NCBI RefSeq assembly: GCF_014203425.1
Contig: NZ_JACHJC010000001.1
Span: 4,366,001 to 4,430,000 of the forward strand
Reading direction: 5' to 3'
DNA: 64,000 nt
Origin: Micromonospora echinospora
Lineage (GTDB): Bacteria > Actinomycetota > Actinomycetes > Mycobacteriales > Micromonosporaceae
Part shown: one piece after another, positions 43,668 to 62,718 of the stretch
Layout of the letters: the number at the start of each line of letters is the position of its first letter
How positions within the stretch are numbered: position 1 is the stretch's first letter
The notes under the pieces: model-generated
Seen by the model: the letters and a program-made list of their open reading frames with translations, nothing else
The model's database searches: none
What the model was told of the DNA's origin: nothing
Position numbers and translations under genes: made by a program

Positions 43668-44471
43668 TCACCGTGGGGCGACTGTGTAGCGTCGGTATCT
43701 CCAGGTCGCAAGCGGCGCGAACATGAGCAGGATGCCGATAGTCCATCCTATCGACATCCAAACCGGATGCTCGGCGGCGAATCCGTTCGGCGGTGCCGTG
43801 CCGGCCCCACCGGCCGCCTCTCGGACGGCCTGCGTCACCGCGCTCACCGGGTTCCAAGTCGCTATCCCCCGAAGCCCGGAGGGCAGTTGGTCGATCGGCA
43901 CGAATGCGCTCGACAGGAACGTGGCCGGAAAGAGCCAGATGAGGCTCGCGCTCTGCGCCACCTCGGCGTTGCGCACCGCCAGGCCGAGCGTGGCGGTGAC
44001 CCAGGTCAGCGCGTACCCGAAGCCCAGAACCAGCGCGCCACCGGTGAGCAGTCCGGCCGCGTCGCCGGCCGGCCGCCATCCCACTGCGAGTCCCGCGCCT
44101 GCGCAGACCAGGACCACGAGCACCATGCTGAGCAGATCCCCGGCCGTGCGCCCGACCAGGACCGCGGCACCCGCCATCGGCAGCGACCGGAAACGATCCA
44201 CGATACCGCGTCGCACGTCGTCCGCGAGGCCGATGGCGGTGATCGCGGAGACCCACACCGCGCTCTGCACGATGACGCCCGGCATCAGGTACGCGCGGTA
44301 GTCCGACCCGGGCACCGTGATGGCATCCCCGAAGACGTACGCGAAGAGCACGACGAACAGCACCGGCTGGATCGTGGTGAAGACCAACAGGTCAGGCACC
44401 CGGCGGATGCGGATGGCGTTGCGCCAGGTCAGGATCGCGCTGTCGGTGAGCGCCCCGCGCAGGGTCGTCAT
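43668..44471 (-). CDS. ABC-2 type transporter permease (DrrB-like)
   Basis: About 267 residues with six predicted membrane helices. DrrB/ABC-2 features: an N-terminal TWRNAIRIRRVPDLLVFTTIQPVLFVVLF segment, a central cytoplasmic GIVDRFRSLPMAGAAVLVGRTAGDL loop and ATFLSSAFVPIDQLPSGLRGIATWNPVSAVTQAVR near the end. It overlaps the ATPase gene by 4 nt. As part of an operon with the biosynthetic GNAT and ALDH genes it is the probable exporter of, or self-protection system for, the peptide. Confidence 0.92.
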   Translation of the reverse strand: MTTLRGALTDSAILTWRNAIRIRRVPDLLVFTTIQPVLFVVLFAYVFGDAITVPGSDYRAYLMPGVIVQSAVWVSAITAIGLADDVRRGIVDRFRSLPMAGAAVLVGRTAGDLLSMVLVVLVCAGAGLAVGWRPAGDAAGLLTGGALVLGFGYALTWVTATLGLAVRNAEVAQSASLIWLFPATFLSSAFVPIDQLPSGLRGIATWNPVSAVTQAVREAAGGAGTAPPNGFAAEHPVWMSIGWTIGILLMFAPLATWRYRRYTVAPR

Positions 44472-45418
44472 CGGTGTCCGCCTTCCTCCGCCGCAGTCAG
44501 GGCCAGGAAGACGTCGTCTAGACTGGGCCGCTCCGTGCCCAGTTCCAGCGGCTCCACACCGTGCGCACGGAGGTCACCCGCCAGCCCGATCATCGCGACG
44601 GTGGCGTCGGCCACCGGCACGGAGAGCCGGCACCCGTCCGGGCTCCGGTCCGGCTCCCGCAGGCCGTGTGCCGCCAGTAGACGCGCCGCGCGGTCAGCGT
44701 CCCGCCGGTCCACTGTCACCGCCAAACGATCGCCGCCGAGGCATTTCTTGAGATCCTCGGGCGTGCCCTCGGTCACCAGGCGGCCGCCGGCGAGGATCGC
44801 GATGCGATCGGCGAGCCGGTCCGCTTCGTCCAGGTACTGCGTGGTGAGCAGCACGGTCACCCCGTCCTCGGCGAGCCCTCTGACGATGTCCCACAGGGCC
44901 CGGCGGCCGGCCGGGTCCACTCCCGTCGTCGGCTCGTCCAGGATCAGCACGTCGGGACGCCCGATCAGCGCACAGGCCAGATCGAGGCGTCGACGCATCC
45001 CGCCGGAATAACCTCGGGCCGGGCGGTCCGCGGCGCTGTCGAGCCCCAGCCGCCGGATCAACGATTCGGCTCGGCTGCGCGTGGTGCGGCGGTCGAGCTG
45101 GTAGAGACGGCCCACCATGGTCAGGTTCTCCAGACCGGTGAGGTACTCGTCGACTGCGGCGAACTGACCGGAGAGGCCGATCCGGCGCCGGACCTGGGCG
45201 GGCGCGGCCACCACGTCGACGCCGCAGATCCGGGCGCTTCCGGCGTCCGGTGGCTGCAACGTCGACAGGATGCGGACCAGCGTCGTCTTGCCGGCCCCGT
45301 TCGGGCCGAGGACCGCCACGATGCTGCCGCGCGGGACCGCCAGGCTGAGGCCGTCCAGAGCAGGCGTGCTGCCGTACGACTTGTGCAGATCGCGCACGTC
45401 GATGGCCGGCTCAGTCAT
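44468..45418 (-). CDS. ABC transporter ATPase (DrrA-like)
   Basis: About 316 residues. Walker A GPNGAGKTTL, Q-loop SGQFAAVDEYLTG, signature YSGGMRRRLDLACALIGRPDVLILDEPTTGVDP (ABC motif plus Walker B) and H-loop region TTQYLDEAD, then the C-terminal DrrA-type extension. It pairs with the DrrB-like permease. Its start overlaps the GNAT stop by 8 nt and its end overlaps the permease start by 4 nt. Confidence 0.95.
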   Translation of the reverse strand: MTEPAIDVRDLHKSYGSTPALDGLSLAVPRGSIVAVLGPNGAGKTTLVRILSTLQPPDAGSARICGVDVVAAPAQVRRRIGLSGQFAAVDEYLTGLENLTMVGRLYQLDRRTTRSRAESLIRRLGLDSAADRPARGYSGGMRRRLDLACALIGRPDVLILDEPTTGVDPAGRRALWDIVRGLAEDGVTVLLTTQYLDEADRLADRIAILAGGRLVTEGTPEDLKKCLGGDRLAVTVDRRDADRAARLLAAHGLREPDRSPDGCRLSVPVADATVAMIGLAGDLRAHGVEPLELGTERPSLDDVFLALTAAEEGGHR

Positions 45419-46058
45419 CGGCCGGCTCCCCGACGAGACGGCGGGCCACGTCGACGGGCGCGGCGGCGAGGTAGCGGGACAACACCCGTCGCGCGGCCCG
45501 GCGGTCCTCGGCCGGCACCGCTTCCGCCGACGGGTGCCGGCCGGGCGAAGCGGCGTACTCGGTGGCGAGCAGCGACGAGACGACGGCGTGGTGGAAGCGC
45601 CCGTCGAGGTAGAAGTAGTCGCGGAGCACCCCTTCCACCGTCAGCCCCAACGCCGCCACCGTCTCGATCATCATGCGGTCGAAGGTGGCGGTGACCAGCT
45701 CCACGCGGTGGGCGTTCAGGGTACGGAAGAGGTAGCCGAACAACAGGGCGAACGCCTCCCGGCCGGCGTCGGCACCCCAGCGTTCCGGATCGCCCACCAC
45801 GTGCTCGATCGTGTAGCCGCCGGTGACGCCGGCACGTCGCCACGACAGCGCGCCGATCGGGTCGCCGTGCGCATGCTCTACGACGAGAGTGGTCTGCCGG
45901 GTCCCCCCGATCACCTCCCGGGCCTGTGACGGCGTCAGGAACCGCGGCCCTCGCGACGAGTGCACCACGGTCTCCGCGGCCAGCCAGCGCGCCACCAGTG
46001 CCACGTCGTCGTCATCCAGGGCGCGTAACCGGACCGACGTCCCACCGAGCATGCTCAT
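45411..46058 (-). CDS. GNAT acyltransferase of the peptide cluster, copy 1
   Basis: About 215 residues. RimJ/RimL-type GNAT (VRLRALDDDDVALVARWLA; RVELVTATFDRMMIETVAALGLTVEGVLRDYFYLDGRFHHAVVSSLL). It shares the ending VLRDYxYxDGxxHxAV with the second GNAT at 57211 and both continue into a similar C-terminal region, so the two are paralogues. In goadvionin biosynthesis a GNAT joins the acyl chain to the avionin peptide N-terminus; this protein, or its paralogue, is the candidate here (inference). Translationally coupled to the ALDH gene by an ATGA overlap. Confidence 0.85.
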   Translation of the reverse strand: MSMLGGTSVRLRALDDDDVALVARWLAAETVVHSSRGPRFLTPSQAREVIGGTRQTTLVVEHAHGDPIGALSWRRAGVTGGYTIEHVVGDPERWGADAGREAFALLFGYLFRTLNAHRVELVTATFDRMMIETVAALGLTVEGVLRDYFYLDGRFHHAVVSSLLATEYAASPGRHPSAEAVPAEDRRAARRVLSRYLAAAPVDVARRLVGEPADD

Positions 46059-47512
46059 CGGGGCGCCCCGGACACCGTCATCGCGTGCTTGATCCTGCTG
46101 TACTCGTCCAGGGCGTAGATGGACAGCTCCTTGCCGTGACCGGAGACGCCGAAACCTCCGTGTGGCATCTCCGAGGCGAACCGCAGGTGCGTGTTGATCC
46201 ACACGCAACCGAACTCGAGCCGCCGGACGAGCTCCATCGCCGTACCGTGATCGCGGGTCCAGACGCTTGCCGCGAGACCCTGTTCCACCCCGTTGGCCAG
46301 GTCCAGCGCCGTCTCCAGGTCGTCGAAGGGCTGGACGGTGACGACCGGGCCGAAGGTCTCCTCCTGCACCAGGCGGTCATGCTGTCGCACGCCGGACACC
46401 ACTGTCGGTTCGAAGAAGTAGCCGGTCTCGCCGATCCGCCGGCCACCGGTGTGGATCCGGGCGCCCGGTGTCAGAGCGGACAGCAGGGAGGTCAGCCGGT
46501 CGAGCTGAGCGGCGTTGTGCAACGGGCCGAGGTCGCAGTCGTCGCCGGGCGGGCCCACCCGCAGCGACTCCGCGCGTTTCACCAGCGCCGCCACGAACTC
46601 GTCGTGCCGCTCGGCGGCCACGATCACCCGGGCCGCCGCCACGCAGTCCTGGCCGGCGTTGCCGAAACCGGACGTGGCGACCGCGTTCACGGCCTCGGTC
46701 AGGTCCGCGTCGGCCAGCACCACCACCGGCGCGTTGCCCCCGAGTTCGAGGTGTATCCGTTTCAGTCTGTCGCCAGCGGCCGCCGCGACTTCACGACCGG
46801 CGCGGGTGCTTCCGGTGAGCGACACCATGGCGACGTCCGGGTGGACCGCCAGCAGTCGCCCCGTTTCGGCGTCTCCGCAGACCACGTTGACCACACCAGG
46901 TGGCAGATGCGCGCCGGCGAGCTCGGCCAACCGCAGGGCCGTGACCGGGGTGGACGGGGCCGGCTTCAGCACCACGCAGTTCCCGGCGGCCAGAGCCGGG
47001 GCGAGCTTCCACACGGCGGTCAGCAGTGGGAAGTTCCAGGGCAGGATCTGCGCAGACACCCCCACCGGTTCCCTGCGCACGAGCGAGGTAAGGCCGGCTT
47101 CGTACTCCCCGGCGGCCGGCGCCAGTGCGAGGCGAGCCGCCCCGGCGAAGAAACGAAGATGGTCCACGGCCGGCGCGATCTCGTCGGCGGCGACCAGGCG
47201 GGCCGACTTCCCGGTCATGGCAGCCTCCGCCTCCGCGAGAGCGGTGGTCTGCCCCGCCACGGCGTCAGCCAGCGCCAGCAGCGCCGCCGCTCGGCGTGCG
47301 GGCGGTTGCCACCGCCAGTGCCCGAACGCCGACGTGGCGGCGCGCACCGCCTCGTCCACGTCCGCAGCGTCGGAGCGGGGTGCAAGGTACGCGGCCCGGC
47401 CGGTCGACGGGTCGTTCACCGTGTCCCACCGTCCCGACCGGGGCGGCACGGCCGCGCCGGCGATGTGGTTGTCGTATCGCGGTGGGTGATGGTGCTCCGG
47501 TGTGCCGGACAT
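46055..47512 (-). CDS. Aldehyde dehydrogenase, aminobutyraldehyde-dehydrogenase-like
   Basis: About 485 residues. Complete ALDH active site: N160 in PWNF, E256 in LELGG, C290 in NAGQDC. The NAGQDC motif and overall pattern resemble gamma-aminobutyraldehyde/aminoaldehyde dehydrogenases, which oxidise omega-amino aldehydes to amino acids. In this cluster it may supply an amino-acid-like starter for the acyl cap (inference). ATG 47512 was preferred because a G-rich ribosome site precedes it; an in-frame ATG at 47539 is the alternative. First gene of the minus-strand operon ALDH-GNAT-ABC. Confidence 0.9.
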   Translation of the reverse strand: MSGTPEHHHPPRYDNHIAGAAVPPRSGRWDTVNDPSTGRAAYLAPRSDAADVDEAVRAATSAFGHWRWQPPARRAAALLALADAVAGQTTALAEAEAAMTGKSARLVAADEIAPAVDHLRFFAGAARLALAPAAGEYEAGLTSLVRREPVGVSAQILPWNFPLLTAVWKLAPALAAGNCVVLKPAPSTPVTALRLAELAGAHLPPGVVNVVCGDAETGRLLAVHPDVAMVSLTGSTRAGREVAAAAGDRLKRIHLELGGNAPVVVLADADLTEAVNAVATSGFGNAGQDCVAAARVIVAAERHDEFVAALVKRAESLRVGPPGDDCDLGPLHNAAQLDRLTSLLSALTPGARIHTGGRRIGETGYFFEPTVVSGVRQHDRLVQEETFGPVVTVQPFDDLETALDLANGVEQGLAASVWTRDHGTAMELVRRLEFGCVWINTHLRFASEMPHGGFGVSGHGKELSIYALDEYSRIKHAMTVSGAPR

Positions 47513-47605
47513 GCGCCCCCCTGGTCTGCCGCGGTTCATGTGGGGGCGAAGCTACCGCTCGCCGCGACGCGTTCCGTAGTGGCTGGCCGGTAGCGGCCAG
47601 CGGCG

Positions 47606-47635
47606 TTGACCAGCCGGCGCGGACGTTCCTACGTT
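47606..47635 (+). promoter_or_regulatory. Promoter candidate for the lanD-lanKC operon
   Basis: TTGACC, 18-nt spacer, TACGTT, 45 nt before the GTG of the decarboxylase gene, in the divergent gap with the ALDH operon. Confidence 0.4.
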
Positions 47636-47680: not shown

Positions 47681-48355
47681 GTGCCGCAGAACGAGCGCGA
47701 ACCGACCGCCGACAGCGCGAAGGCCGTTCCGGAGTTCGGCGGCCGGCGTCTGCTGCTGGTCAGCAGCGGCGCGGTGGCGGTGATGCACCTGCCGTTCTGG
47801 CTCAACTGGATCAGCACCAACTATCCGGATCTGCAGATCCAGGCGGTCGTCACACCGAGCGCCCAGCGCTTCGTCAGTCAGGACGCGCTCACCCTGCTGA
47901 CCGGACGCCGGGCCCACCTCGACCGGTGGCCGGCGCAGACCGACACTGGCGCACTGCACGCGCAGTGGGTGGAGTGGGCCGACTGCGCCCTGGTCTACCC
48001 CGCGACGCTGAACTACCTCGGTCGACTCGCCTCAGGGCTGGGCGACAGCCCGAGTCTGCTCGCCCTCCAGTGCGCTGCCACGATCCCCATCGTGGTGGCG
48101 CCGTCCCTGCCCCCCGGTGCCACCGACAATCCGATCGTGCAGGAGAACCTGCGACGGCTGGCCACCCGGCCGAACCTCGTGGTCGCACCCACGCAGCCGG
48201 CCCGGAGCGCGACCACCGGCCGGCGCGACGCCGCGGGCGCGGTGCCGGTCTGGTCAGCGATCGTCCTCCTTGAGCGCTGCCGCCGGGCGCTGGCCGGAAC
48301 CGGCGACGAGCAGGTGACACCACACCGCACGACCCAGCCTATCCGCAGCGCCTGA
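47681..48355 (+). CDS. LanD/HFCD flavoprotein, peptidyl-cysteine decarboxylase
   Basis: About 224 residues of the homo-oligomeric flavin-containing Cys decarboxylase family (EpiD, MrsD, MicD). LLLVSSGAVAVMHLP is the FMN-binding start; H93 in LHAQWVEWADCALVYPATLN matches the catalytic His region, PATLN is the PASANT-type loop, and SLPPGATDNPIVQENLRRL corresponds to the PxMN clamp. It should oxidatively decarboxylate the C-terminal Cys of the precursor to an enethiol for AviCys/avionin formation. It is 11 nt upstream of lanKC. GTG start with a weak ribosome site. Confidence 0.85.
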   Translation: MPQNEREPTADSAKAVPEFGGRRLLLVSSGAVAVMHLPFWLNWISTNYPDLQIQAVVTPSAQRFVSQDALTLLTGRRAHLDRWPAQTDTGALHAQWVEWADCALVYPATLNYLGRLASGLGDSPSLLALQCAATIPIVVAPSLPPGATDNPIVQENLRRLATRPNLVVAPTQPARSATTGRRDAAGAVPVWSAIVLLERCRRALAGTGDEQVTPHRTTQPIRSA

Positions 48356-48366
48356 GGGGGACGCCG

Positions 48367-50973
48367 ATGTTCGAGCTCAAACAGGTCTACTGCTTCGCCG
48401 ACCAGGTCTTCTTCGACGACGTGAGCAACTGGCGGGACGGACCGGGGTTCGATACGGCGGCAGGATTCCGGGTCGACGTACGTCAGCCGCCAAACGGGTG
48501 GACGCGTGTCGAGCGCGGCATCTGGACGGTGCTACGTCCCGATCGGACGGAGGGTCCGGAGCAGGGGTGGAAGATCCACGCCGCTGCCACGCCGCAGAAC
48601 GCGGACGAGGTAATCTCCCGGGTGTGGGACTACTGCACGGCGCGTGACATCCGGTTCAAGTACCTGCGGAACCCGAACGTGCTGGTCGCGCTGAATGCCA
48701 AGTACGCGCCACGCTCGGCCAGCGGCAAGGCCGTGACGATCTACCCCGTCGACGAGGCGGCGCTACGCCTGATCCTCGAGGAGCTCGATCCGCTGCTCGC
48801 CGGGCTCTCCGGCCCGTACATCCTCAGCGACCTTCGCTACGGCGCCGGCCCGCTGTACGTCCGCTACGGCGGCTTCCGCCGCATGGAGTGCCTCGACGAC
48901 GCCGGTCAGCTCGTGCCCGCGATCCGGGACCCCGACGGGACGCTCGTGCCGGACGTCCGGCGGCCCGTCTTCGCGCCACCCTCGTGGGCGACCCTGCCGG
49001 AGTTCCTGCGGCCACACCTCGCAGCGCGTACCGCGGGCAGCGGCGGTGAGCTGCCGTACCGGGTGGAGCGGACCCTGCACTTCTCCAACGCCGGGGGCGT
49101 CTACCAGGCCGTCCGCACCACCGACGGCAAGCGGGTGGTGCTCAAGGAGGCGCGGCCGTACGCCGGTTTCGACGAGCACCGGCAGGACTCGGTGGCCCGC
49201 ATGCGGCGGGAACGATGGGCGTTGGAGAAGCTTGCCGGTGTTCCCGGCGTGCCGGAGGTGTACGGCTCTGTCGAGGCCGGCGGCCACCACTTCCTGGTCC
49301 AGGAGTTCCTGGATGCTCAGTCGTTGCACGTCTGGCTGGGCTGCAACCACCCGTGGGTGGTACTGGCCGACCCGACCCCTGACGACTTCGCCGCCTTCAC
49401 CAAGCGGGCGCTGGCCATCGCCGAACGGATCGAACGGCTCCTGGCCGCCGTCCACGAGCGGGGGGTCGTCTTCGGGGACCTGCACCTGGGCAACGTGATG
49501 GTGCACGCGGACGACTCGGTCTCCCTCATCGACTTCGAGCTCGCCTTCGATGCCGCGCAGGCCGACTGGCGGCCGGGGCTCGGGGCTACCGGCTTCACCA
49601 GCCGGGACCGCAGCGGCGCCGACCTGGACCGGTACGCGCTGGCCGCCGTCCGCCTCGGCATGTTCATGACCTTGAATCGTGTTGTCGCTCTCGACCCCGA
49701 CAAGGTGGTCCAGTACGCCCGCGAGGCAGAGCGGCACTTTCCGCTCCCGGCCGGCTGGGCGGACGAGATCATCGCGGAGCTGCGCCCACCCGGCGCGAAG
49801 GTCCACAAGCCGTGTGGCGACGAGCCGCTCGCGGTCGACCTAGACGCGTCCCTCCCGGACTGGTCCGCTGCCACCCGGTCGATGGCACGGGCCATCATGG
49901 CCTCGGCCACCCCGGACCGGGAGGACCGGCTGTTTCCCGGCGACACCCGGCAGTTCTCGGTCGGCGGGCTGAACCTCGCCTACGGCGCGGCGGGAGTGCT
50001 GTGGGCCCTGTCGGCGACCGGGCAGGGGCGGTGGCCCGGTCACGAGGAGTGGTTGCTGTCGGCGGTACGACGGCAGACGGGCATGCGACCGGGCTTCTAC
50101 GACGGGGCAGCCGGTGTGGCGTACGCCCTGCACCACCTGGGGCACGAGGAGGCCGCGTACGACCTGGTGGCACGCTGGGGTGGCGGGCCGGGCGCCGTGC
50201 TGCCGATGGACCTCTTCTCGGGGTACGCCGGCGTCGGGCTCAACCTCCTGCATCTCGGCCGAGCGGCCGGGGAGTCGAGCTGGCGGACCGACGCACTCGC
50301 CATCGGCGACCGCCTGGCCGACGCGGTCCGGTCCGGTAACCCGAATCTTCCCCGGGGCGAGCGGCGCCCGCCCCGCACTCCGGTGGAGGCGGGCCTGATG
50401 CGCGGCTGGTCGGGCGTGGCCCTGTTCCTGCTGCGTCTGTACGAGGAGACCGGTGACCGCGGCTTGCTGGACGCGGCGGTGACCGCGGTGCACCGAGACC
50501 TCGACAGGTGCACGACAACCGCCGACGGATCCCTCCAGGTCGAGGAGGTCGGGGTCCGGACGCTGGGGTACCTCGAGGTGGGCAGCGCCGGCATCGCCCT
50601 GGTCGCGGACGAGCTGCTGGAACACCGCGACGACGACCGGGTGCGGGCGAGTCTGCCCGCCCTGCTGAGTGCCTGTGCCCGGGGCTTCGTCATCCAGGTC
50701 GACCTGTTCCGGGGACGGATAGGGCTCGGCGCGACGCTCGCCCGGATCGCCGGCAGGCACGGCATCACCGACGTGGAGTCCGCTGTGGACCGGCATCTGC
50801 GCCGGCTCTCCTGGCACGCCATCGCCTACCGCGGTGAGCTCGCTTTCCCCGGGGACCTCGACTTCCGGCTGTCGATGGACCTCGCGACCGGCACCGCGGG
50901 TGTGCTCCTGGGTATCGCCGCGGCGACCGGGCGCACCCCGGACTTCCTGCCGTTCCTCTCACCCCGCCCTTGA
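48367..50973 (+). CDS. lanKC: Class III lanthipeptide synthetase LanKC
   Basis: About 868 residues in the class III order: N-terminal phospho-Ser/Thr lyase domain (1 to about 215), Ser/Thr kinase (about 230-480; K260 in VVLKEA, GDLHLGN at 370-376, DFE at 389-391), and a LanC-like cyclase (about 515-865) with GxxG repeats (GAAGV, GYAGV, GWSGV, GSAGI, GRIGL, GTAGV). The zinc-binding Cys and His of class I/II/IV cyclases are absent, as expected for class III. It phosphorylates and dehydrates Ser in the precursor and forms labionin or lanthionine-type rings. GAGGGGG lies 7 nt before the ATG. Confidence 0.95.
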   Translation: MFELKQVYCFADQVFFDDVSNWRDGPGFDTAAGFRVDVRQPPNGWTRVERGIWTVLRPDRTEGPEQGWKIHAAATPQNADEVISRVWDYCTARDIRFKYLRNPNVLVALNAKYAPRSASGKAVTIYPVDEAALRLILEELDPLLAGLSGPYILSDLRYGAGPLYVRYGGFRRMECLDDAGQLVPAIRDPDGTLVPDVRRPVFAPPSWATLPEFLRPHLAARTAGSGGELPYRVERTLHFSNAGGVYQAVRTTDGKRVVLKEARPYAGFDEHRQDSVARMRRERWALEKLAGVPGVPEVYGSVEAGGHHFLVQEFLDAQSLHVWLGCNHPWVVLADPTPDDFAAFTKRALAIAERIERLLAAVHERGVVFGDLHLGNVMVHADDSVSLIDFELAFDAAQADWRPGLGATGFTSRDRSGADLDRYALAAVRLGMFMTLNRVVALDPDKVVQYAREAERHFPLPAGWADEIIAELRPPGAKVHKPCGDEPLAVDLDASLPDWSAATRSMARAIMASATPDREDRLFPGDTRQFSVGGLNLAYGAAGVLWALSATGQGRWPGHEEWLLSAVRRQTGMRPGFYDGAAGVAYALHHLGHEEAAYDLVARWGGGPGAVLPMDLFSGYAGVGLNLLHLGRAAGESSWRTDALAIGDRLADAVRSGNPNLPRGERRPPRTPVEAGLMRGWSGVALFLLRLYEETGDRGLLDAAVTAVHRDLDRCTTTADGSLQVEEVGVRTLGYLEVGSAGIALVADELLEHRDDDRVRASLPALLSACARGFVIQVDLFRGRIGLGATLARIAGRHGITDVESAVDRHLRRLSWHAIAYRGELAFPGDLDFRLSMDLATGTAGVLLGIAAATGRTPDFLPFLSPRP

Positions 50974-51135: not shown

Positions 51136-51807
51136 ATGATCGCCGGTCTCTTCGGCCTCGCCCTGCTGGACAGTCTCAATCCGTCGGCGCTCGCTGTCAC
51201 GGTCTATCTGCTGCTCTCGACGAGACCGCCCGGGGCCCGCGTGCTCGTCTACGTGGGTGCCATCTACGCCTCGTACCTCGCCCTCGGCGTGCTGCTGTTC
51301 CTCGGCGCGGATTCGTTCCTCGACCGGGCGGGTGGATACCTCGCCAGTGACGCGGGCTACGTGCTGCAGGGTGTGGTCGGCGTGGCGCTGCTGCTCTATA
51401 GCTGGCTGGCCGGCCGTCGCCGAGGCGGCGAGCGGCTGACGCCCCGCCGGCCCCGATCCCACTCCTACGCCGCGATCGCGTTGCTCGGTGTGATCGTGAC
51501 CGTCGCGGAGTTCGGCACCGCGCTGCCCTACCTCGGCGCGATCGGCATCCTGGTCGGCGCGGACACGTCCATCCCGCAGGCGATCGTGCTGCTGGCCGCC
51601 TACAACGCGGTGATGGTGTTGCCGCCGCTGCTGGTGCTCGCGGCCTACCAGGCACTGGGTAACCGGATCCGGCAACGGCTCGAGTCCGCTGGCACATGGC
51701 TGATGCGGCAGGCCGCTGAACTCTGGCTGTCGGTACTCAGTGCGGCAGGGGCACTGCTGGTCCTTAGCTGCGTGCATCACTTCGAGCTGTGGAAGAAGAT
51801 CGGCTGA
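51136..51807 (+). CDS. GAP/LysE-like multi-pass membrane protein
   Basis: About 223 residues with six predicted helices. LFGLALLDSLNPSALAVTVYLL at the start and VTVAEFGTALPYLGAIGIL in the middle are typical of the GAP/Sap family related to LysE exporters and to CcdA-type proteins. AGGAGG sits just before the ATG. GAP proteins in mycobacteria are linked to glycopeptidolipid export, so a role in export of the acylated peptide is plausible but inferred. It ends 1 nt from the convergent carrier-protein gene. Confidence 0.78.
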   Translation: MIAGLFGLALLDSLNPSALAVTVYLLLSTRPPGARVLVYVGAIYASYLALGVLLFLGADSFLDRAGGYLASDAGYVLQGVVGVALLLYSWLAGRRRGGERLTPRRPRSHSYAAIALLGVIVTVAEFGTALPYLGAIGILVGADTSIPQAIVLLAAYNAVMVLPPLLVLAAYQALGNRIRQRLESAGTWLMRQAAELWLSVLSAAGALLVLSCVHHFELWKKIG

Positions 51808-55696: not shown

Positions 55697-55789
55697 ATGG
55701 ACCTGTCCAACGTTCTGGACCTTCAGGGCACCGAGGTGGTCGTCGAGCACGTCGACCTGCCGGCCAGCTTCGACAGCTCGACCTGCTGA
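55697..55789 (+). CDS. Lanthipeptide (avionin/labionin-type) precursor peptide
   Basis: 30 residues, too short for usual gene finders. It starts MDLSNVLDLQ, which holds the class III leader motif (LxLQ), continues with an acidic/valine-rich stretch and ends LPASFDSSTC. S24, S27 and C30 give the S-x2-S-x2-C spacing needed for a labionin-type ring, and Cys is the last residue, as required for LanD decarboxylation to AviCys/avionin. AAGGGGG lies 8 nt upstream of the ATG. A LanKC and a LanD-type enzyme lie in the same cluster, and a strong hairpin follows the stop, as in many RiPP operons. Confidence 0.82.
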   Translation: MDLSNVLDLQGTEVVVEHVDLPASFDSSTC

Positions 55790-55842: not shown

Positions 55843-55893
55843 ACCCCATCGTTCGTACCCACCAGCCCGGCCCCTCCGGGAAGGAAGCCACCC

Positions 55894-56928
55894 ATGACAG
55901 CGCAACAAGCACCGGCGGCCTACCGGGCGCTGACCGCGGGAGCGCCGGCCGTCCCCGTCGGCATCGTCGGCTCAGGGCTGTACGTACCCGAGCGGGTGGT
56001 CGGCAACTCCGAGATCGCCGACGGCCTGGACACCACCGAGGCGTGGATCGAAAGCCGGACGGGCATTCTGACCCGTCACTTCGCCGCCGCCACCGAGTCC
56101 ACCTCCGACATGTGCCTGCGCGCCGTCCACAACGCCCTGGAGGGGGCACGGATCGACCCGGGCGAGGTGGACGCGGTCATCGTTTCCACCATCACCGCCG
56201 ACCAGCCTCTGCCCTCCACGGCGGCGGCGGTCGCCGAAGCGCTCGGCGCTCACGCCGCCTGGCCGATCGACCTCACCCAGGCCGCCTGCGCGGGCGGGGT
56301 GCACGGCCTGGTGCTCGCCGCCCACCTCCTGCAGAACCCCGAAATCGGAACAGTGGTGGTGGCCGGCGCCGAGACGCTGTCCCGGATCACCGATCCGGCC
56401 GACCGCACCACCAGGGTCTTTTTCGGCGACGCCGCCGGCGCTGTGGTGCTACGCCGGACCAAGCCGGGTAGCGGCCTGCTCGCCTGGGACGCCGGCTACA
56501 AGCTCTCCTACCGCGTCGGCATCACCGCCGGCGGCAGCCGACGGCCTCTGACCCCGCAACGGGTGGCCGACGGCGAGCACTTCCTGCGGATGGACGGCCG
56601 GGCGGTCTGGCGGGAAGCCACCCAGGCTCTGCCCGCCAGCATCCGCAACGTCGCCCGGCGCGCGGGAGTCGCCCTCGACGATCTTGATCATGTGGTGCTG
56701 CACCAGGCCAACCTCAACATCATCCACGAAGTGATGGACCAGCTCGGCGTGCCCCGCGGCCGGGCCACGACCACTGTCGGCGACCTCGGCAACACCGGCT
56801 CCGCAACCGTCTTCACGGTGCTCCACCAGTTACTCACCTCCGGTCGGCTGCGCCCCGGCGACCTGGCCGTCGTATCGGCCATCGGCGCCGGGTTCGTCTG
56901 GGGATCGGTCTGCCTGCGCCACCATTGA
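55894..56928 (+). CDS. Beta-ketoacyl-ACP synthase III (KAS III/FabH-like)
   Basis: About 344 residues of the thiolase fold with the KAS III triad C132 (TQAACAGGVHG), H270 (VLHQANLNII) and N300 (GNTGSATVF). It would condense an acyl-CoA or acyl-carrier starter with malonyl-ACP. First biosynthetic gene after the precursor hairpin, in the plus-strand operon KAS III-ACP-GNAT-oxygenase-PLP-SDR-AT-AT. AAGGAAG precedes the ATG at 55894; the frame is open far upstream only by chance. No second KS (FabF) is present, so a single elongation, or help from primary metabolism, is implied. Confidence 0.93.
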   Translation: MTAQQAPAAYRALTAGAPAVPVGIVGSGLYVPERVVGNSEIADGLDTTEAWIESRTGILTRHFAAATESTSDMCLRAVHNALEGARIDPGEVDAVIVSTITADQPLPSTAAAVAEALGAHAAWPIDLTQAACAGGVHGLVLAAHLLQNPEIGTVVVAGAETLSRITDPADRTTRVFFGDAAGAVVLRRTKPGSGLLAWDAGYKLSYRVGITAGGSRRPLTPQRVADGEHFLRMDGRAVWREATQALPASIRNVARRAGVALDDLDHVVLHQANLNIIHEVMDQLGVPRGRATTTVGDLGNTGSATVFTVLHQLLTSGRLRPGDLAVVSAIGAGFVWGSVCLRHH

Positions 56929-56944: not shown

Positions 56945-57208
56945 ATGCGCGACGAACTCCGGGAGCTCTTCGTCTCCACCTACGATCTCGACCTGCCACC
57001 GGGCGATGTCGACCCCACCGAACCGCTGTTCGGCACCCGCTCACGGTTCGGCCTCGACTCGATGGACACCCTACGCTTCATCGCGCTGCTCAACGAGCGC
57101 TACGGCCTGGACATCGCCGCCACCAACACGGACACCTTCCGGACCATCGAGCGCATCGAGGCCGTTCTCGGACCCCGGCAGGCGACAACGGTACGGGAGG
57201 AGCGCTGA
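56945..57208 (+). CDS. Acyl carrier protein
   Basis: About 87 residues with S39 in FGLDSMD as the phosphopantetheine attachment site. It follows the KAS III gene by 16 nt and is the natural carrier for malonyl and beta-ketoacyl groups in this operon. Distinct from the PCP-like carrier at 51809. Confidence 0.92.
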   Translation: MRDELRELFVSTYDLDLPPGDVDPTEPLFGTRSRFGLDSMDTLRFIALLNERYGLDIAATNTDTFRTIERIEAVLGPRQATTVREER

Positions 57209-57210: not shown

Positions 57211-57876
57211 GTGGAGGGCATGCTCGTCCGGCTCAGACCGGTCAGCGAGGACGACTACGGCCGGCTACCGACGTGGACCCGGCACTCGGCCGCCGGAGTA
57301 CTGGTAGGCGGAGGACAGAGCGACGGGCTTGATGCCGCGGGATGGCGCTCGGCCATCGAGTCCGGCCACACCGAGTACGCCGCCATCGAGACCCGCATCG
57401 ACGGCGAGACGATAGGGATGGTCTCCTGGCGGCCCCTGGCGCACGACCGCAGCTTCGCCGTCGGCGCGGTCGTGGGCGATGACCAGTGGTGGGACAGCGG
57501 AGCCGGCCTGGAGGGGGCGCTTCTGCTGGTCGACCACCTTTTCCAGCGGGAGCGGGCACACCGGCTGGAGCTGCTGGCGGCCTGTTACAACCGGCGCTCG
57601 GTGGCCTTTCTCGCCAAGGGGGATCTCGTCGTGGACGGCGTCCTGCGCGACTACCTTTACGTCGACGGCGGCTACCACGACGCCGTGATCTGCTCCATGA
57701 ACCGCGAGGAGTACCTCGCTCCCCTCGACGGCTACCTGCCGTCGCTGCGGTTGATCTGCGACGCCGACGCCGACGCCGCGGCCGGCACGCTGCGCCGGTA
57801 CCTCGCCGGTTCCGGCGGTGACCACCTGCGTGGTGTGCTCTCCGACTGGCGGATGCCGGAGGCCGCGCATGCCTGA
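57211..57876 (+). CDS. GNAT acyltransferase of the peptide cluster, copy 2
   Basis: About 221 residues. VRLRPVSEDDYGRLPTW, then HRLELLAACYNRRSVAFLAKGDLVVDGVLRDYLYVDGGYHDAVICSM is a RimJ/RimL GNAT with the same C-terminal signature as the copy at 45411. Located between the ACP and the oxygenase genes, it is the best candidate for moving the acyl group from the ACP to the modified peptide, by analogy with the goadvionin GNAT (inference). GTG start with GGGAGGAG 8 nt upstream; an in-frame ATG lies at 57220. Confidence 0.87.
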   Translation: MEGMLVRLRPVSEDDYGRLPTWTRHSAAGVLVGGGQSDGLDAAGWRSAIESGHTEYAAIETRIDGETIGMVSWRPLAHDRSFAVGAVVGDDQWWDSGAGLEGALLLVDHLFQRERAHRLELLAACYNRRSVAFLAKGDLVVDGVLRDYLYVDGGYHDAVICSMNREEYLAPLDGYLPSLRLICDADADAAAGTLRRYLAGSGGDHLRGVLSDWRMPEAAHA

Positions 57877-58855
57877 GGAAGCGACCACTGCTGCCGCGGA
57901 CCTGGTCGCCGATCTGGCGGCCACCGCGGAGAGGCTCGCCGGCCTCGGAGCGGTCCCGGACCGGCTGCTCCAGACGCACGCCGGCCAGATCCCGCGCGAC
58001 CTCCTGGCCCGCCTGAGCAGGCAGGTGGGCCGGCCGCCGCGGCACAGTGGCGCACTGCTGGTCCGTGGTCTGCTCGCTCCGCTGGCCGCGAAGTGCGGGC
58101 CGACGCCCGCCCACTGGTCCGCCGCGCCCACCGGCCCGATGGACCTCGCCCTGGTGCTGGTCGCCGCCGCGCTCGGCCAGGTGTTCGGCTGGGCGGGGCA
58201 GCAGGACGGGCGTCTGGTCCACAACATCGTGCCCAGCCAGGGCTACGAGAACCTGCAGGTCGGTGCCAGCAGCAGCGTGCCGTTGGAATGGCACACCGAG
58301 GACGCCTTCCACCCCGGCCGGGCCAGCCTGCTGATGCTCGCCTGCGTCCGCAATCCCGCCGGCGTCGGTACCCGGATCGCGTCGGTACGTGAGCTGGGAC
58401 TGCCGCACGAGGACCTGATCCGGCTCGGCCGACCGGTCGTGCGCATCTCCCCCGACGCGTCGTACCCGGCGACGGGGAGCGGGCCGGGTACGACGCGGCC
58501 CGGCGTACCGACGGTGTGGTGGGCGCCGGACGGCCCCTGCCTGCGTTACGACCCCGCCTACAGCACCCGCAGCCACGACGATCCCGCCTTCGAAGAGTCC
58601 TACCGGTCCCTGGCGGAGCGGCTGGAACAGGAGGCTCGTTCGGTGCCGATGGGCGCAGGCGATCTCGCACTGATCGACAACGATGTGGCGGTGCACGGGC
58701 GTGTGCCGTTCACACCGCGGTACGACGGCACGGACCGTTGGCTCAAGCGCATCATGGTGCGATTGCCCAGCCAGCGCCCGGAGGCCGAACGTCGCGAGGA
58801 CGGCTACGGCCAGGTCGAGATCGTCCTGCCGACGACAGCCGGAGCCGTCCGGTGA
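57869..58855 (+). CDS. Clavaminate-synthase/VioC-like Fe(II)/2-oxoglutarate oxygenase
   Basis: About 328 residues. The facial triad is H142-x-E144 in LEWHTEDAFHPG plus distal H276 in DVAVHGRVPF, with an Arg in RWLKRIMV for 2-oxoglutarate. The WHTEDAFHP motif with Glu in place of Asp is characteristic of the VioC/AsnO/clavaminate synthase group, which hydroxylates free or carrier-bound amino acids at the beta carbon. It may hydroxylate the activated amino-acid starter or a residue of the peptide (inference). It overlaps the GNAT gene by 8 nt and the PLP-enzyme gene by 4 nt. Confidence 0.9.
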   Translation: MPEEATTAAADLVADLAATAERLAGLGAVPDRLLQTHAGQIPRDLLARLSRQVGRPPRHSGALLVRGLLAPLAAKCGPTPAHWSAAPTGPMDLALVLVAAALGQVFGWAGQQDGRLVHNIVPSQGYENLQVGASSSVPLEWHTEDAFHPGRASLLMLACVRNPAGVGTRIASVRELGLPHEDLIRLGRPVVRISPDASYPATGSGPGTTRPGVPTVWWAPDGPCLRYDPAYSTRSHDDPAFEESYRSLAERLEQEARSVPMGAGDLALIDNDVAVHGRVPFTPRYDGTDRWLKRIMVRLPSQRPEAERREDGYGQVEIVLPTTAGAVR

Positions 58856-60078
58856 GCCCGACGACGCGGATCGGCCTGCCCGAGCACCCGGTGCCGGAGT
58901 TGAACGACCTCCTGCGCGCGCCGGTCAACGAGCAGTTTCCCGGGCTGCGCGGCGCCGGCCACCGCTTCGACGCCCCCGGCGGCACATTGGTCCACGCCGC
59001 CGTGGTGCGGGCGATGAGCAGGTATCTCGGCAGCCGGCACGTGGCCAACGACCACGGCCCCTTTCCGGCCAGCGCCTACTCCGACGTGATAGTCGAATGG
59101 GCCGCCGACCGTGTCCGGGCCCTCCTCGGGGCCGCCGGTGGACACGTCCTGTTCGGCCCGAACATGACCACGCTCACCACTATGTTCAGCCGTGGGGTCG
59201 CCGGCGATCTGCGGCCGGGAGACGAGATCGTCTGCACCGAGCTCGATCACGAGGCCAACCACTGGCCGTGGCGTGCGGTGGCGGAGCGGACGGGCGCCCG
59301 GGTCCGCCTCGCGCGGTTGCACCCGGACGGCACCCTGCCGGCGGAGGCGATCATCCGCGAACTGACCCCACGGACCCGGTGGGTGGCGATCAGCGGCGCC
59401 TCGAACGCACTCGCCACCGTGCCGGATGTGGCCGCGGTCTCCGCAGCCGCGCACCGGGTAGGCGCGCGTGTCTACGTCGACGGGGTGCAGCGGGTGGCGC
59501 ACAGCCGGGTGGCTGTCGACGAGTGGGGAGTCGACGCCTTCGTCACGTCCGCCTACAAGTGGTACGGCCCGCACTGCGCGGCGCTGTGGCTCTCCGACCA
59601 CCTGGACCCACTGCTGCCGGAGCAGGTGCCGTCCGCCGGGGACGCCCTGCCCGGCAGGCTGGACCTCGGCACCACCCAGTTCGAGGCGGTGCTCGGCACC
59701 GGCATCGCGGCCGAGGTGCTGTTGGGCTGGGACCGGACCGCCATCGCCGAGCGCGAGCACGCCCTCGCGGAGCGGATTCGCACGTGGCTGCGGGCGGACA
59801 GCCGATTCAGGGTGCTCGGGCCGGCCGGGGGAACCCTGATGCCGATCATCACTTTCCAGGTGGCCGGAATGGCTGCGACGGCAGTGGCGACCAGCCTCGC
59901 GGCGCGGGACGTCGCGGTCTGGGACGGCACGTTCTACTGCGGGCCGGCGTTCCAGGCGTTGTCGCCCGCGACGTCCGGCGCCGTCCGGGCGGGCGTCGCC
60001 GCCTACACGACCGACAACGACGTCACGGCGTTCCTCGACGCGCTGGTCGAGGTGACGCGGAAGAAGCGGGCCGGCTGA
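58852..60078 (+). CDS. Class V aminotransferase / cysteine-desulfurase-like PLP enzyme
   Basis: About 408 residues, fold-type I. PLP Lys K236 in TSAYKWYGPH, D210 in YVDGVQRVAH (stacks on the cofactor), and HEANHWPWR in the N-terminal half, as in SufS/CsdA and isopenicillin-N-epimerase-like enzymes. No mobile Cys loop typical of real desulfurases is evident, so amine transfer, epimerisation or elimination are all open. GTGA overlap with the oxygenase gene. A 35-nt gap with AGGAGG leads to the SDR gene. Confidence 0.87.
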   Translation: MSPTTRIGLPEHPVPELNDLLRAPVNEQFPGLRGAGHRFDAPGGTLVHAAVVRAMSRYLGSRHVANDHGPFPASAYSDVIVEWAADRVRALLGAAGGHVLFGPNMTTLTTMFSRGVAGDLRPGDEIVCTELDHEANHWPWRAVAERTGARVRLARLHPDGTLPAEAIIRELTPRTRWVAISGASNALATVPDVAAVSAAAHRVGARVYVDGVQRVAHSRVAVDEWGVDAFVTSAYKWYGPHCAALWLSDHLDPLLPEQVPSAGDALPGRLDLGTTQFEAVLGTGIAAEVLLGWDRTAIAEREHALAERIRTWLRADSRFRVLGPAGGTLMPIITFQVAGMAATAVATSLAARDVAVWDGTFYCGPAFQALSPATSGAVRAGVAAYTTDNDVTAFLDALVEVTRKKRAG

Positions 60079-60113
60079 CGCCGGCCGGCATCCGGTAGGC
60101 AGGAGGAGAACGG

Positions 60114-60866
60114 GTGGACCTCACAGCTCGCGTCGCAATGGTCACCGGCGGGTCGAGTGGGATCGGGCGAGCGGTCTGCCTGCGCCTGGCGCAGGCGGGC
60201 GCCCGGGTGGTGATCGGCTATCGCGGCAACCGCGACGGCGCCGACACCACCGCGCAGGCGATCCGGGACAAGGGATGGCCGGAGCCCGCGACGGTCCGTG
60301 TCGACGTCACCGATGCCGAGGACACCCAGCGAGTCTTCGGGCACGTGGTCCGGGCGAACGGCAAGCTGGACATCCTGGTCAACAACGCGGGGGTGGGCCA
60401 GCCCTCCGCAGTCGTGCCGATGAACCCGGTCGGCGAATGGGCGGCCAGCGTCGAGACCAACCTGCTGGGAACGCTGCACTGCATCAAGGCGAGTTCCCTG
60501 CACATGCTCGTGGCCCGCTCAGGCTCGATCGTGAACATCTCCTCGATCGCCGGCCGCGTCGGCATACCCGGTCTGAGCTCCTACTGTGCGAGCAAGGCCG
60601 GCATCGAGGGGATGACCCGGGCATTGAGCCGGGAGTTCGCCCCGTACGACGTCCGGGTCAATGCGGTGGCGCCCGGGTACACCGCCGACACGGGGATGGT
60701 CGACCGGATCGACGACAAGCGACTGAGGGAGTTCCTCGACCGGATCGCGATGAAGCGGCTCGCGGACGCACACGAGGTGGCCAATGCAGTGGCCTTCCTG
60801 GCAAGTGACGAGGCGAGTTACATCACCGGGCACACGCTGGTGGTCGACGGAGGGCTGACCGCATGA
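60114..60866 (+). CDS. 3-oxoacyl-ACP reductase-like SDR (FabG-like)
   Basis: About 250 residues: VTGGSSGIGRAV, DILVNNAGVG, NISSIAGRVGIPGLSSYCASKAG (Ser, Tyr, Lys) and APGYTADTGM. The ending VAFLASDEASYITGHTLVVDGG is the FabG type. It would reduce the beta-keto group made by the KAS III to a beta-hydroxyl. No dehydratase or enoyl reductase is present in the cluster, so a beta-hydroxyacyl cap is the simplest outcome. AGGAGGAG precedes the GTG start. Confidence 0.92.
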   Translation: MDLTARVAMVTGGSSGIGRAVCLRLAQAGARVVIGYRGNRDGADTTAQAIRDKGWPEPATVRVDVTDAEDTQRVFGHVVRANGKLDILVNNAGVGQPSAVVPMNPVGEWAASVETNLLGTLHCIKASSLHMLVARSGSIVNISSIAGRVGIPGLSSYCASKAGIEGMTRALSREFAPYDVRVNAVAPGYTADTGMVDRIDDKRLREFLDRIAMKRLADAHEVANAVAFLASDEASYITGHTLVVDGGLTA

Positions 60867-61804
60867 ACCGGGAGACGCCCGACGCGGTGCTGTTCAACCC
60901 CCAGGTGGTCGTCGAGCCCGGCGACCACCGGGACTTCTACGACGAGTTCCCCGAGGTGCGCCGCCGGATGGCGGAGGCGTCGGACGTGCTCGGCGTCGAC
61001 CTCGCGGCGCGCTTCTACGCGGAGGACCCGGCGGCCATCAACGACGGGACTGTCGTGCGCCCGGCCTCGGTCGCGATCGCGGTGGCGATCTGCGATGTGA
61101 TCGGCCTGCGTGAACGACCGCCCCGGTACATGGCGGGCCTGAGTCTCGGTTCGATCGTGGCCGCGCACCTCGGCGGATTCATGTCGTTCCGGGACACCAT
61201 CCGGATGGTGTCCACCATGCCCGCGGTTGAGGACCGGGTGGTGGCGGGGCGGCCGTTGGGCGTGGCGTTCTACTACAACGTCGACCTCGACCGGTTCCAG
61301 GCCGAGATGCGGGAGGTATCCACCGCCGAGTCGCCGCTGCTGACCTGCGCGATCACCGCCGACAACCAGATGATTGCCACCGGCGCGGTGGCCGGGCTGC
61401 AGGAGCTCAATCTGCGGGCCGCCTCGATCGGCGGCGTCGGCCTGGTGATCCCCTACGGACCGCCCGCGCACAGCCCGCTGCCGGTGCTGTACGACATCAA
61501 GGAAACCTTCGCCCGCGAATGGAGCTATCTGGATCCGACGTCGGATCCGCAGGTGCCGCAGCTATGCAATCACACCGGGGCGGTCATCGACCGACGCGAG
61601 GACCTGATGGCCGCCTTCGTCGAGCAGTACACGAGAACGGTCCGCTGGGACCTGGTGGTGCGACGGCTCGCGGACCTCGGCGTCAAGCAGGTGACGGTCG
61701 TCGGGCCCGGGCACTTCGTGTACCGGTCGATGCAGTTCGTCGACGTGTCGTACCAGGTGCAGACGGTGCTGACCTGCGCCGAACTCCGGAGCGCGGCCGA
61801 ATGA
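60863..61804 (+). CDS. FabD-like acyltransferase, copy 1
   Basis: About 313 residues. AT fold with nucleophile S94 in AGLSLGS and catalytic His203 in PPAHSPL, the FabD dyad. Likely loads malonyl (or another acyl) onto the ACP of the operon. The N-terminus FNPQVVVEPGDHRDFYDEFPEVRRRMAEAS is shorter than in housekeeping FabD, where a GQGSQ-type motif opens the protein; here that motif is missing. ATGA overlap with the SDR and with copy 2. Confidence 0.87.
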   Translation: MNRETPDAVLFNPQVVVEPGDHRDFYDEFPEVRRRMAEASDVLGVDLAARFYAEDPAAINDGTVVRPASVAIAVAICDVIGLRERPPRYMAGLSLGSIVAAHLGGFMSFRDTIRMVSTMPAVEDRVVAGRPLGVAFYYNVDLDRFQAEMREVSTAESPLLTCAITADNQMIATGAVAGLQELNLRAASIGGVGLVIPYGPPAHSPLPVLYDIKETFAREWSYLDPTSDPQVPQLCNHTGAVIDRREDLMAAFVEQYTRTVRWDLVVRRLADLGVKQVTVVGPGHFVYRSMQFVDVSYQVQTVLTCAELRSAAE

Positions 61805-62718
61805 CCGAGGCGGTGCTGCTTCCCGGGCTCGCCCCCTCGAATCACCGCGCGGTGGGTGAGTTCATGGTGACCGATCCCTATGCCCGCCGCCGGGTGGCTC
61901 AGGCCGACGCGGTGCTGGGCCGGTCGCTCGTGGACGGTTTCCGGACGGCCGGGCCGGCCGGCAACGCTGACAGTCAGCTCGCGTTCATGGTCAACTGCAT
62001 CGCGCTGGCCGATCGCGCCGAACAGGCCGGCATGTCCGCCCGGCTGGCCATCGGTCCGAGCTTCGGCCAGTTCGCTCTCGCCGCGCACCTGGGCGTGCTG
62101 CCGTTCGAGATCGCCGTCGAGCTCGTCATCGCCTTCTCCGACTGCGAGCTGGAGTACTTCCGAACCCGGCACACCGGCCTGGTGACCCGGTTCTTCTACC
62201 GGCTCGACACGACAGGTCTGGCAGTGGTGCGCCGTGAGTTGACCGTGCGCGGCGCCTGGAACGAACTCTCCTGCGATCTCGACGCCGGCTTCGCCGCGCT
62301 GACCCTAGCCAGAGACGCGGTGCCTGCTCTGGACGCCGCGGTGCGAGCGATCGGCGGAATCCCCCTCTACAGCCTCTCGCCGCCCGTGCACAGCTCGGCC
62401 TTCGGTGAGCTCCGGGATCGGTGCGCCGAGGTCTGCCACGGTGTCGACTTCGCCGCGCCTCGCATGCCGGTTGTCTCCGACCACGACGGCACACTCGTCA
62501 CGACCGGGCCAGGCGTACGTGAGCTCCTGCTGGCCGGGATCGTCCGCCCGGTGCGGTGGCCCGCCGCGATGGCCGCCCTGACCGGGGCCGGGGTGCGCAT
62601 CGTCTGGGTTCCCGGACCGAGCAACCTGTTCGACCGGCTGGCGCGCACCGCCTTCGAGGTGCGCGCGGTCAACCCGGAGAACGCAGCGACAACGCGTGAG
62701 GCGATTGACTTTCGATAG
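61801..62718 (+). CDS. FabD-like acyltransferase, copy 2 (divergent)
   Basis: About 305 residues. Nucleophile S87 in AIGPSFGQ and H197 in SPPVHSSAFG keep the Ser/His dyad, but the nucleophile elbow GPSFG and much of the rest differ from copy 1. It opens with VLLPGLAPSNHRAVGEFM. A different acyl preference or a hydrolytic/editing role is possible. Two consecutive AT genes with 4-nt overlaps suggest a two-subunit function. Last gene of the biosynthetic operon. Confidence 0.82.
   Translation: MTEAVLLPGLAPSNHRAVGEFMVTDPYARRRVAQADAVLGRSLVDGFRTAGPAGNADSQLAFMVNCIALADRAEQAGMSARLAIGPSFGQFALAAHLGVLPFEIAVELVIAFSDCELEYFRTRHTGLVTRFFYRLDTTGLAVVRRELTVRGAWNELSCDLDAGFAALTLARDAVPALDAAVRAIGGIPLYSLSPPVHSSAFGELRDRCAEVCHGVDFAAPRMPVVSDHDGTLVTTGPGVRELLLAGIVRPVRWPAAMAALTGAGVRIVWVPGPSNLFDRLARTAFEVRAVNPENAATTREAIDFR

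Follow-up and report, generated by a model that had tools for sequence, protein, structure and literature searches.

The gene cluster described here raises the question of how a lanthipeptide-type peptide could receive an acyl cap when no polyketide synthase (PKS) is encoded beside it. The cluster occupies positions 43668–62718 of the window, by which we mean the whole 64,000-nucleotide stretch of the Micromonospora echinospora genome analysed (NZ_JACHJC010000001.1, positions 4,366,001 to 4,430,000; the genome is a single contig of 7.13 Mb). On balance, sequence comparison leads us to favour a lipolanthine-type cluster in which a PKS-free set of stand-alone acyl enzymes would build a short guanidino-β-hydroxyacyl cap. 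The peptide half of this pathway is well supported by the genes, and the cap half is one that we infer. Domains were assigned from Pfam and NCBIfam model matches judged against the model cut-offs, and every gene named in the preliminary description of the locus was found inside the interval. The search proteins for KAS III and for one GNAT-fold acyltransferase (GNAT1) used starts at 55885 and 46061, 3 and 1 residues too long, respectively; the true starts are the ATG at 55894 and position 46058.

The precursor is a 30-aa peptide (MDLSNVLDLQGTEVVVEHVDLPASFDSSTC; 55697–55789, + strand) with a class III leader of 22 aa followed by the core ASFDSSTC, which places S-x2-S-x2-C at the C terminus. In comparisons with precursors from three other genomes it scored 73, 106 and 86, the highest among the window's 1017 six-frame segments, compared to 36, 36 and 38 for the runners-up. 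This indicates that it is not a chance open reading frame (ORF). Clusters with LanKC and LanD in genomes G020, G884 and G803 encode 30-aa precursors (MDLINVLELQEIEAAPEYDQLPQSLESSGC, MDLANVMDLQGTEIVADGIELPASASSETC and MDIADVMDLQGEEVVADGVELPASTASDGC, respectively) that share 16, 19 and 17 of the 30 residues with that of the window, and all four keep S-x2-S-x2-C. The class III lanthionine synthetase LanKC (48367–50973, + strand) matched NF038151 with 999.1 bits (cut-off 575). For LanD, the predicted peptidyl-cysteine decarboxylase (47681–48355, + strand; PF02441, 56.6 bits), the best model was CypD at 101.9 bits, below its cut-off of 215, and the CoaBC model gave 76.3 bits. Among 31 flavoprotein-family rows placed in a tree, LanD grouped with the LanDs of the avionin-type clusters in G020, G884 and G803 (support 95/93), away from five CoaBC-type proteins, including the genome's own, which formed a separate group (100/100); three long branches (own_L001, own_L004 and f1_L036) lay outside both. 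The tree rules out a CoaBC-like enzyme and so answers the doubt, raised in the preliminary description, that LanD might belong with CoaC/Dfp. Precursor, LanKC and LanD together bear out the lipolanthine-type assignment made there, and from their sequences the cluster almost certainly encodes such a peptide.

A scan of genome contigs with LanD returned ten loci, all of CoaC/CoaBC type. In the stretches fetched around LanD relatives in 18 genomes, LanKC was present in G020 and in none of the other 17, and LanKC relatives at 51–53% identity in G681, G564 and G580 had no LanD match within the 35 kb fetched for each. The same genome as the window carries a second LanKC (G000:C1:4217190-4219688), 44% identical to that of the cluster. 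A LanKC cluster in G420 (L103 with L140 and L208) holds two precursors, ending STISNNC and STVSNNC, a GNAT, a VinK-like acyltransferase (AT), a ligase and a thiamine diphosphate (ThDP) decarboxylase 49% identical to one in G020; no LanD match occurred there in 60 kb. GNAT1 of the window (45411–46058, – strand; PF13302, 35.7 bits, cut-off 25.4) is 40% identical, across two thirds of its length, to the GNAT adjoining LanKC in G420.

Like the described lipolanthines (microvionin, nocavionin, nocaviogua and goadvionin), the window pairs a class III synthetase with LanD. Its core spacing, S-x2-S-x2-C, is identical to that of nocaviogua, whose core is given as Ala-Avi-Val-Ser-Avi-Asp/Asn-Gly-Avi (PMC10435860). 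Microvionin, nocavionin and nocaviogua are reported to carry an acylated N terminus with a guanidino group (PMC10435860, PMC10373908). The described caps are long and derived from polyketide or fatty acid synthesis, whereas the cluster has no type I PKS domains and encodes instead KAS III, an acyl carrier protein (ACP), a short-chain dehydrogenase/reductase (SDR), two non-malonyl ATs, a stand-alone adenylation enzyme (A-ligase) with a carrier, a TauD oxygenase, a pyridoxal phosphate (PLP) enzyme and an aldehyde dehydrogenase (ALDH), a contrast in which the mic, noc and gdv clusters are set apart by their descriptions only.

The acyl set consists of separate proteins, namely A-ligase, carrier, KAS III, ACP, SDR, the two ATs and two GNATs. 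Ketosynthase (KS), AT, dehydratase (DH) and ketoreductase (KR) domain queries cut from a synthase of G884 had no match in the window, and the adenylation (A) domain query matched only the A-ligase. With no type I PKS domain in the cluster, the stand-alone (type II) character claimed for the acyl system was upheld. Of 37 PF00698 AT-domain matches in the genome, none lay less than 0.6 Mb from the cluster. Thus, the type I PKS or fatty acid synthase (FAS) that is the usual, though not defining, acyl source in described lipolanthines was not found here, and the cap should be made either by the stand-alone enzymes or by another source in the cell. A very large type I PKS region lies at G000:C1:5125447-5296649 of the same genome.

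KAS III (55894–56928, + strand) matched NF006829 (307.9 bits, cut-off 249) and has FabH relatives in the Protein Data Bank (PDB). It is followed on the same strand by the ACP (ACP2; 56945–57208; PF00550, 32.2 bits, cut-off 20.8) and, further downstream, by the FabG-like SDR, a predicted β-ketoacyl reductase (60114–60866; PF13561, 214.6 bits; NF009466, 239.1 bits, cut-off 222), by AT1 (60863–61804; FabD model TIGR00128, 78.6 bits, cut-off 260.9) and by AT2 (61801–62718). An alignment that included FabD of this genome shows the GxSxG Ser and the catalytic His conserved in all AT1 and AT2 proteins, both ATs of the window among them. The FabD Arg that binds the malonyl carboxylate marks malonyl specificity; it is present in the genome's own FabD, is replaced by Met in 11 of 11 AT1 proteins, and is absent from 12 of 12 AT2 proteins (a G420 AT2-like protein counted). 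AT2 also passed the cut-off of the VinK_C model (PF21124, 46.9 bits, cut-off 27), and its nearest solved structures are 5czc (1.2e-70) and related entries, which we take to be VinK. The "two FabD-like ATs" of the preliminary description therefore need correction, since loss of the malonate-binding Arg rules out both as malonyl loaders. Judged from these residues and from the likeness of AT2 to VinK, both are acyl shuttles.

KAS III, ACP, GNAT, SDR, AT1 and AT2 recur together as a cassette in other genomes. AT2 was searched for in 394 genomes of the class, and an AT1 profile was run against two sets of 250 genomes, the first from one family and the second from the family to which the window belongs. 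Four cassette loci supplied the profile (those of the window, G659, G681 and G677), which is therefore biased to their kind; loci were counted from AT1 matches at 1e-40 or better, all of them inspected, except that G677 came from the AT2 search. Such matches occurred in 9 genomes of one family search and in 2 of the other (250 genomes each); there were none in 35 and 200 genomes of two further families, searches that had no positive control. Five AT1 matches between 1e-36 and 1e-31 (G063, G112, G211, G730 and G747) were left uncounted, and no cassette was seen at the two of them inspected, G063 (a 5-kb contig) and G730. The cassette is rare.

Altogether, ten further full loci and one damaged copy (G772) were found, giving 12 loci with the window. 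A maturase of ribosomally synthesised and post-translationally modified peptides (RiPPs) lay near every one of them (11 of 11 full loci and G772), a recognisable precursor was present at 11 of 12, and a GNAT was found in all but G772. LanKC and LanD adjoin the cassette in the window, G884 and G803. In eight genomes (G659, G681, G677, G767, G870, G694, G898 and the damaged G772) the neighbour is a radical S-adenosylmethionine (SAM)/SPASM protein, the precursors end VSxIDFxC (for example MQSFDEFEEIVVESQETPEVSDIDFGC and MQEFEEIITESAADEEVSFIDFNC), and seven loci include a JmjC protein. The maturases of G659, G681 and G677 matched TIGR04463 best, at 192, 205 and 236 bits (below its cut-off of 525), and those of the other radical SAM loci are 75–83% identical to them. 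These radical SAM/SPASM and JmjC clusters (L087, L101, L102, L182, L184, L185 and L187) may represent a separate group of acylated RiPPs. In G020 the cassette lies at 3.55 Mb, apart from that genome's lipolanthine-type cluster; a TIGR03975 RiPP radical SAM methyltransferase (619.8 bits, cut-off 281.85) is encoded on the opposite strand ~9 kb from KAS III, and a 58-aa ORF ahead of it is a candidate precursor. The G772 copy holds ACP, SDR, TauD, PLP enzyme, partial AT1 and precursor, and KAS III, GNAT and AT2 were not found in 45 kb. Read by eye (L189), its precursor is followed by the start of a radical SAM gene that runs into the cut AT1; the locus may be a rearranged or misassembled cassette.

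The preliminary description had considered that the KAS III/ACP set might be a conserved locus unrelated to LanKC. In part this is so, as the set occurs without LanKC at 9 of the 12 loci; another RiPP maturase lies near each of these nine, however, so that the set appears to be a portable RiPP cassette, and we reject the reading of it as an unrelated locus. By the same evidence it seems very improbable that the KAS III-SDR-AT genes make a separate small metabolite and neighbour the lanthipeptide genes by chance: the occurrences without LanKC would allow it, but maturases near each cassette, the 11 full ones as well as the damaged copy, with precursor and GNAT each at 11 of 12 loci, argue otherwise. 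Acylation of the peptide by the cassette is likely on these grounds. GNAT2 (57211–57876, + strand; PF13302, 39.3 bits), which aligns with the cassette GNATs at 33–36% identity, is the proposed N-acyltransferase. The presence of two GNAT genes predicts N-acylation here, and a GNAT has a role in goadvionin.

What the cassette would transfer depends on its starter, for which the related loci offer a guide. Synthases with A, KS, AT and DH domains stand at six loci (G659, G767, G694, G772, G884 and G803). A KR was also seen in four of them, the fetched stretch ending before this point in G767 and G694, and the full order A-PCP-KS-AT-DH-KR (PCP, peptidyl carrier protein) was read in G884. All six A domains have the code DFHP[VI]THDAK, whose positions were assigned by motif according to GrsA numbering. 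Beside this A domain, G884 and G803 encode an amidinotransferase; that of G884 is nearest to human arginine:glycine amidinotransferase (AGAT; 1jdx, 5e-82), and that of G803 is 75% identical to it. In G659, G767, G694 and G772, a TauD oxygenase and a class V PLP enzyme replace it, and no locus has both routes. This exchange beside one A-domain code points to a guanidino acid, and the economical reading of the sequences is that both routes supply a short one.

The window has the second route. Its oxygenase (57869–58855, + strand; GntD 225.1 and VioC 208 bits, both below cut-off) is of the arginine hydroxylase type, with the L-arginine β-hydroxylase 4m23 as best PDB match (1.7e-48). The adjoining class V PLP enzyme (58852–60078, + strand; PF00266, 180 bits) is a proposed retro-aldol lyase. 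Its family keeps the Schiff-base Lys, lacks Cys at the site where desulfurases carry it, and has the motif YKxYGPH in common with FGM3, residues whose role in FGM3-like enzymes we in part presume. FGM3 (9x4u) ranked second of 43 PDB chains with a five-member PLP profile and 13th with the window protein alone. A cysteine desulfurase was rejected on the missing Cys and the profile rank. FGM3 is described as a retro-aldol lyase that splits 4-hydroxyarginine and yields Ala (PMC10967133, PMC10367076). The window ALDH (46055–47539, – strand; PF00171, 501 bits; NF010000, 596.3 bits, below the cut-off of 615), of the aminobutyraldehyde type (amino- or guanidinoaldehyde substrates), is 54–60% identical to those of G767 and G694, and an ALDH of this type also occurs, together with the amidinotransferase, in G803. 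The A-ligase (52105–53592, – strand; PF00501, 201 bits) has the code DLLALSVDAK, which shares D235, D330, A331 and K517 with that of the six PKS-bearing loci; carrier 1 (51811–52108, – strand; PF00550, 21.3 bits, cut-off 20.8) has a phosphopantetheine site. From these relationships, we put the chance that a guanidino acid is the cap starter at about even.

Alternatively, the A-ligase could load an ordinary or β-amino acid, with TauD and the PLP enzyme tailoring that acid and the cap being statine-like (γ-amino-β-hydroxy) or similar. Among solved structures the A-ligase is related first to nonribosomal peptide synthetase A domains and then to the β-aminoacyl-ACP synthetases 7dq5 and 5jjp, which would suit such a starter, as would the VinK-like AT2, since VinK presumably serves β-amino acid starters. 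The exchange of TauD and PLP enzyme for an AGAT-type enzyme beside one A-domain code suggests a guanidino acid instead, and we consider an amino acid starter improbable.

In the guanidino pathway that we favour, the core ASFDSSTC would be dehydrated at Ser2 and Ser5 by LanKC and decarboxylated at Cys8 by LanD, and cyclisation would give the avionin across S-x2-S-x2-C. The oxygenase would hydroxylate L-Arg, the PLP lyase would cleave hydroxyarginine by a retro-aldol reaction, and ALDH would oxidise the aldehyde to guanidinoacetate if C4 is hydroxylated or to 3-guanidinopropanoate if C3 is. The A-ligase would load this acid onto carrier 1, with AT2 and/or AT1 shuttling it; KAS III would condense it once with malonyl-ACP, the malonyl group coming from housekeeping FabD; the SDR would reduce the ketone; and GNAT2 would transfer the guanidino-β-hydroxyacyl group to the N-terminal Ala. 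A single KAS III cycle on an amino-acid-derived starter, as first proposed for the locus, is retained as the simplest reading, and the cap is probably made in one such short cycle, to judge from the genes. We infer an [M+H]+ of 878.35 or 892.36 for the capped product. The mass rule used gives 918.450 for nocaviogua A, reported as 918.4514 (PMC10435860).

Several observations weigh against this pathway. The A-ligase code differs from that of the six PKS-bearing loci. The closest solved relatives of the oxygenase are by name β (C3) hydroxylases, and FGM3 needs a C4 hydroxyl; a plain PDB search with the window PLP enzyme still places desulfurases above FGM3, which counts against the lyase assignment. 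No ALDH was found in the 45 kb fetched at G659 and G772, two of the five loci with TauD and PLP enzyme. The nocaviogua chain is reported to have 13 carbons with the guanidine at C13 (PMC10435860), which points to an odd-carbon starter that 3-guanidinopropanoate would fit and guanidinoacetate would not. As for the cassette itself, a VinK-like AT2 is common elsewhere and does not by itself mark a RiPP locus: AT2 loci fetched from 16 other genomes included the cassette in G659, G681 and G677, LanKC without it in G420, and neither in 12, where AT2 mostly adjoins A-ligases. The KAS III tree, for which three plasmid KAS IIIs served as outgroups, left two unrelated plasmid KAS IIIs amid the cassette ones, and the GNAT tree placed neither window GNAT with support, so that these two trees did not show a common origin of the window copies with those of other cassettes. 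A DNA search with KAS III matched 13 plasmid records, and the two inspected had unrelated settings. One Streptomyces plasmid (L045, NZ_CP108363.1) carries, in an unrelated setting, a KAS III 69% identical to that of the window at the DNA level.

With a PKS beside the cassette at six other loci, the substrate of KAS III may also be a chain from another source. The cap could accordingly be a long fatty or polyketide chain from the cell's FAS or a distant PKS, to which the KAS III set would add the last extension and reduction. Known lipolanthines bear long acyl chains (PMC10435860), an A/KS/AT/DH synthase is present at 6 of the 11 other cassette loci, and large PKS loci exist elsewhere in the genome. 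On the other hand, the cluster has no PKS domain match, at three radical SAM loci (G681, G870 and G898) a ligase and a second carrier accompany the cassette and there is no KS, AT, DH or KR match, and G677 lacks ligase, second carrier and any such match. We regard a long chain as unlikely, if somewhat less so than an amino acid starter.

The G884 and G803 clusters share with the window the avionin-type precursor, LanKC, LanD, an SfLAP-family protein, KAS III, ACP, GNAT, SDR and AT1, at 26–42% identity for the common proteins (52% for the G803 ALDH). An AT-like gene after AT1 was taken as AT2 in both; it gave no tblastn match to the window AT2 and is MdcH-type at 29.7 bits in G884. They differ from it by a synthase, of the order A-PCP-KS-AT-DH-KR in G884, and by an amidinotransferase of the AGAT type, and have no TauD or PLP enzyme. 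By sequence, these are sister clusters of lipolanthine type, in which a synthase is combined with a diverged form of the cassette. The eight radical SAM clusters resemble the window in SDR (47–67%) and AT1 (39–64%; G772 incomplete), and four of them in TauD and PLP enzyme (52–59%), but have a radical SAM maturase and neither LanKC nor LanD at the locus. The G020 cassette (L193/L194) also includes a ThDP decarboxylase, a partial ALDH match and a ligase, a possible third starter route.

Vicenistatin biosynthesis loads its starter through VinN, VinL and VinK, which the A-ligase, stand-alone carrier and VinK-type AT of the window resemble; here the set would feed KAS III and a peptide and not a modular PKS. 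The guanidinoacetate route of fusaoctaxin (Fgm1, Fgm3 and Fgm2) likewise hydroxylates Arg before PLP-dependent C–C cleavage, but is described as using a P450 and an amidohydrolase where the window has a 2-oxoglutarate oxygenase and ALDH (PMC10967133). Among titles and the beginnings of abstracts, a scope without the primary lipolanthine papers, nothing was found that describes a KAS III/VinK cassette for clusters of lipolanthines or of radical SAM RiPPs, and we claim no absence in print. A 2022 review names few lipidated RiPPs (selidamides, lipolanthines, goadvionins and prenylated cyanobactins; PMC9505594). We tentatively propose that a portable cassette (KAS III, ACP, GNAT, SDR and two VinK-like shuttles) makes a short guanidino-β-hydroxyacyl group in trans and caps the N termini of three or more unrelated classes of RiPP. 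Its starter routes would be interchangeable (amidinotransferase; Arg hydroxylase, PLP lyase and ALDH; perhaps ThDP decarboxylase and ALDH), and it would operate with or without PKS elongation. The window would be its PKS-free lipolanthine-type form, using a capping cassette common with other RiPP classes, and its cap structure is a prediction. If true, a discrete capping set for short cyclic peptides would be common to different RiPP classes and easily moved between pathways, would help explain the spread of acyl caps, and would give a direct mass to seek.

The remaining genes of the interval concern regulation and export. An IS5-type insertion element (54183–55114, + strand; transposase PF13340/PF01609), which is not a functional part of the cluster, has 14-bp inverted ends with TAA on both sides. 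It probably cuts the gene of a LuxR-like regulator between the A-ligase and the precursor (53589–54182, – strand; HTH_23, 24.8 bits, cut-off 24.6; GerE, 20.8 bits, below cut-off), whose frame is at most 198 aa compared to 237 aa in its G659 relative. Relatives of the regulator at 32–37% are encoded close to the A domain in four clusters with the cassette (G659, G767, G694 and G772). As the regulator is probably interrupted, this strain may not express the cluster or may misregulate it, a further point against the proposed product.

DrrAB would export the product; it comprises a DrrB-type ABC-2 permease (43668–44471, – strand; PF01061, 85.8 bits; DrrB family TIGR00025, 83.3 bits, below the cut-off of 146.9) and a DrrA-type ABC ATPase (44468–45418, – strand; PF00005, 106.2 bits; DrrA1-3_C, 25.4 bits, slightly below the cut-off of 27.4). 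The SfLAP-family membrane protein (51136–51807, + strand; PF11139, 110.8 bits) was counted as a cluster member because a relative at 33–35% adjoins LanKC in G884 and G803; a role in export or immunity is our guess.

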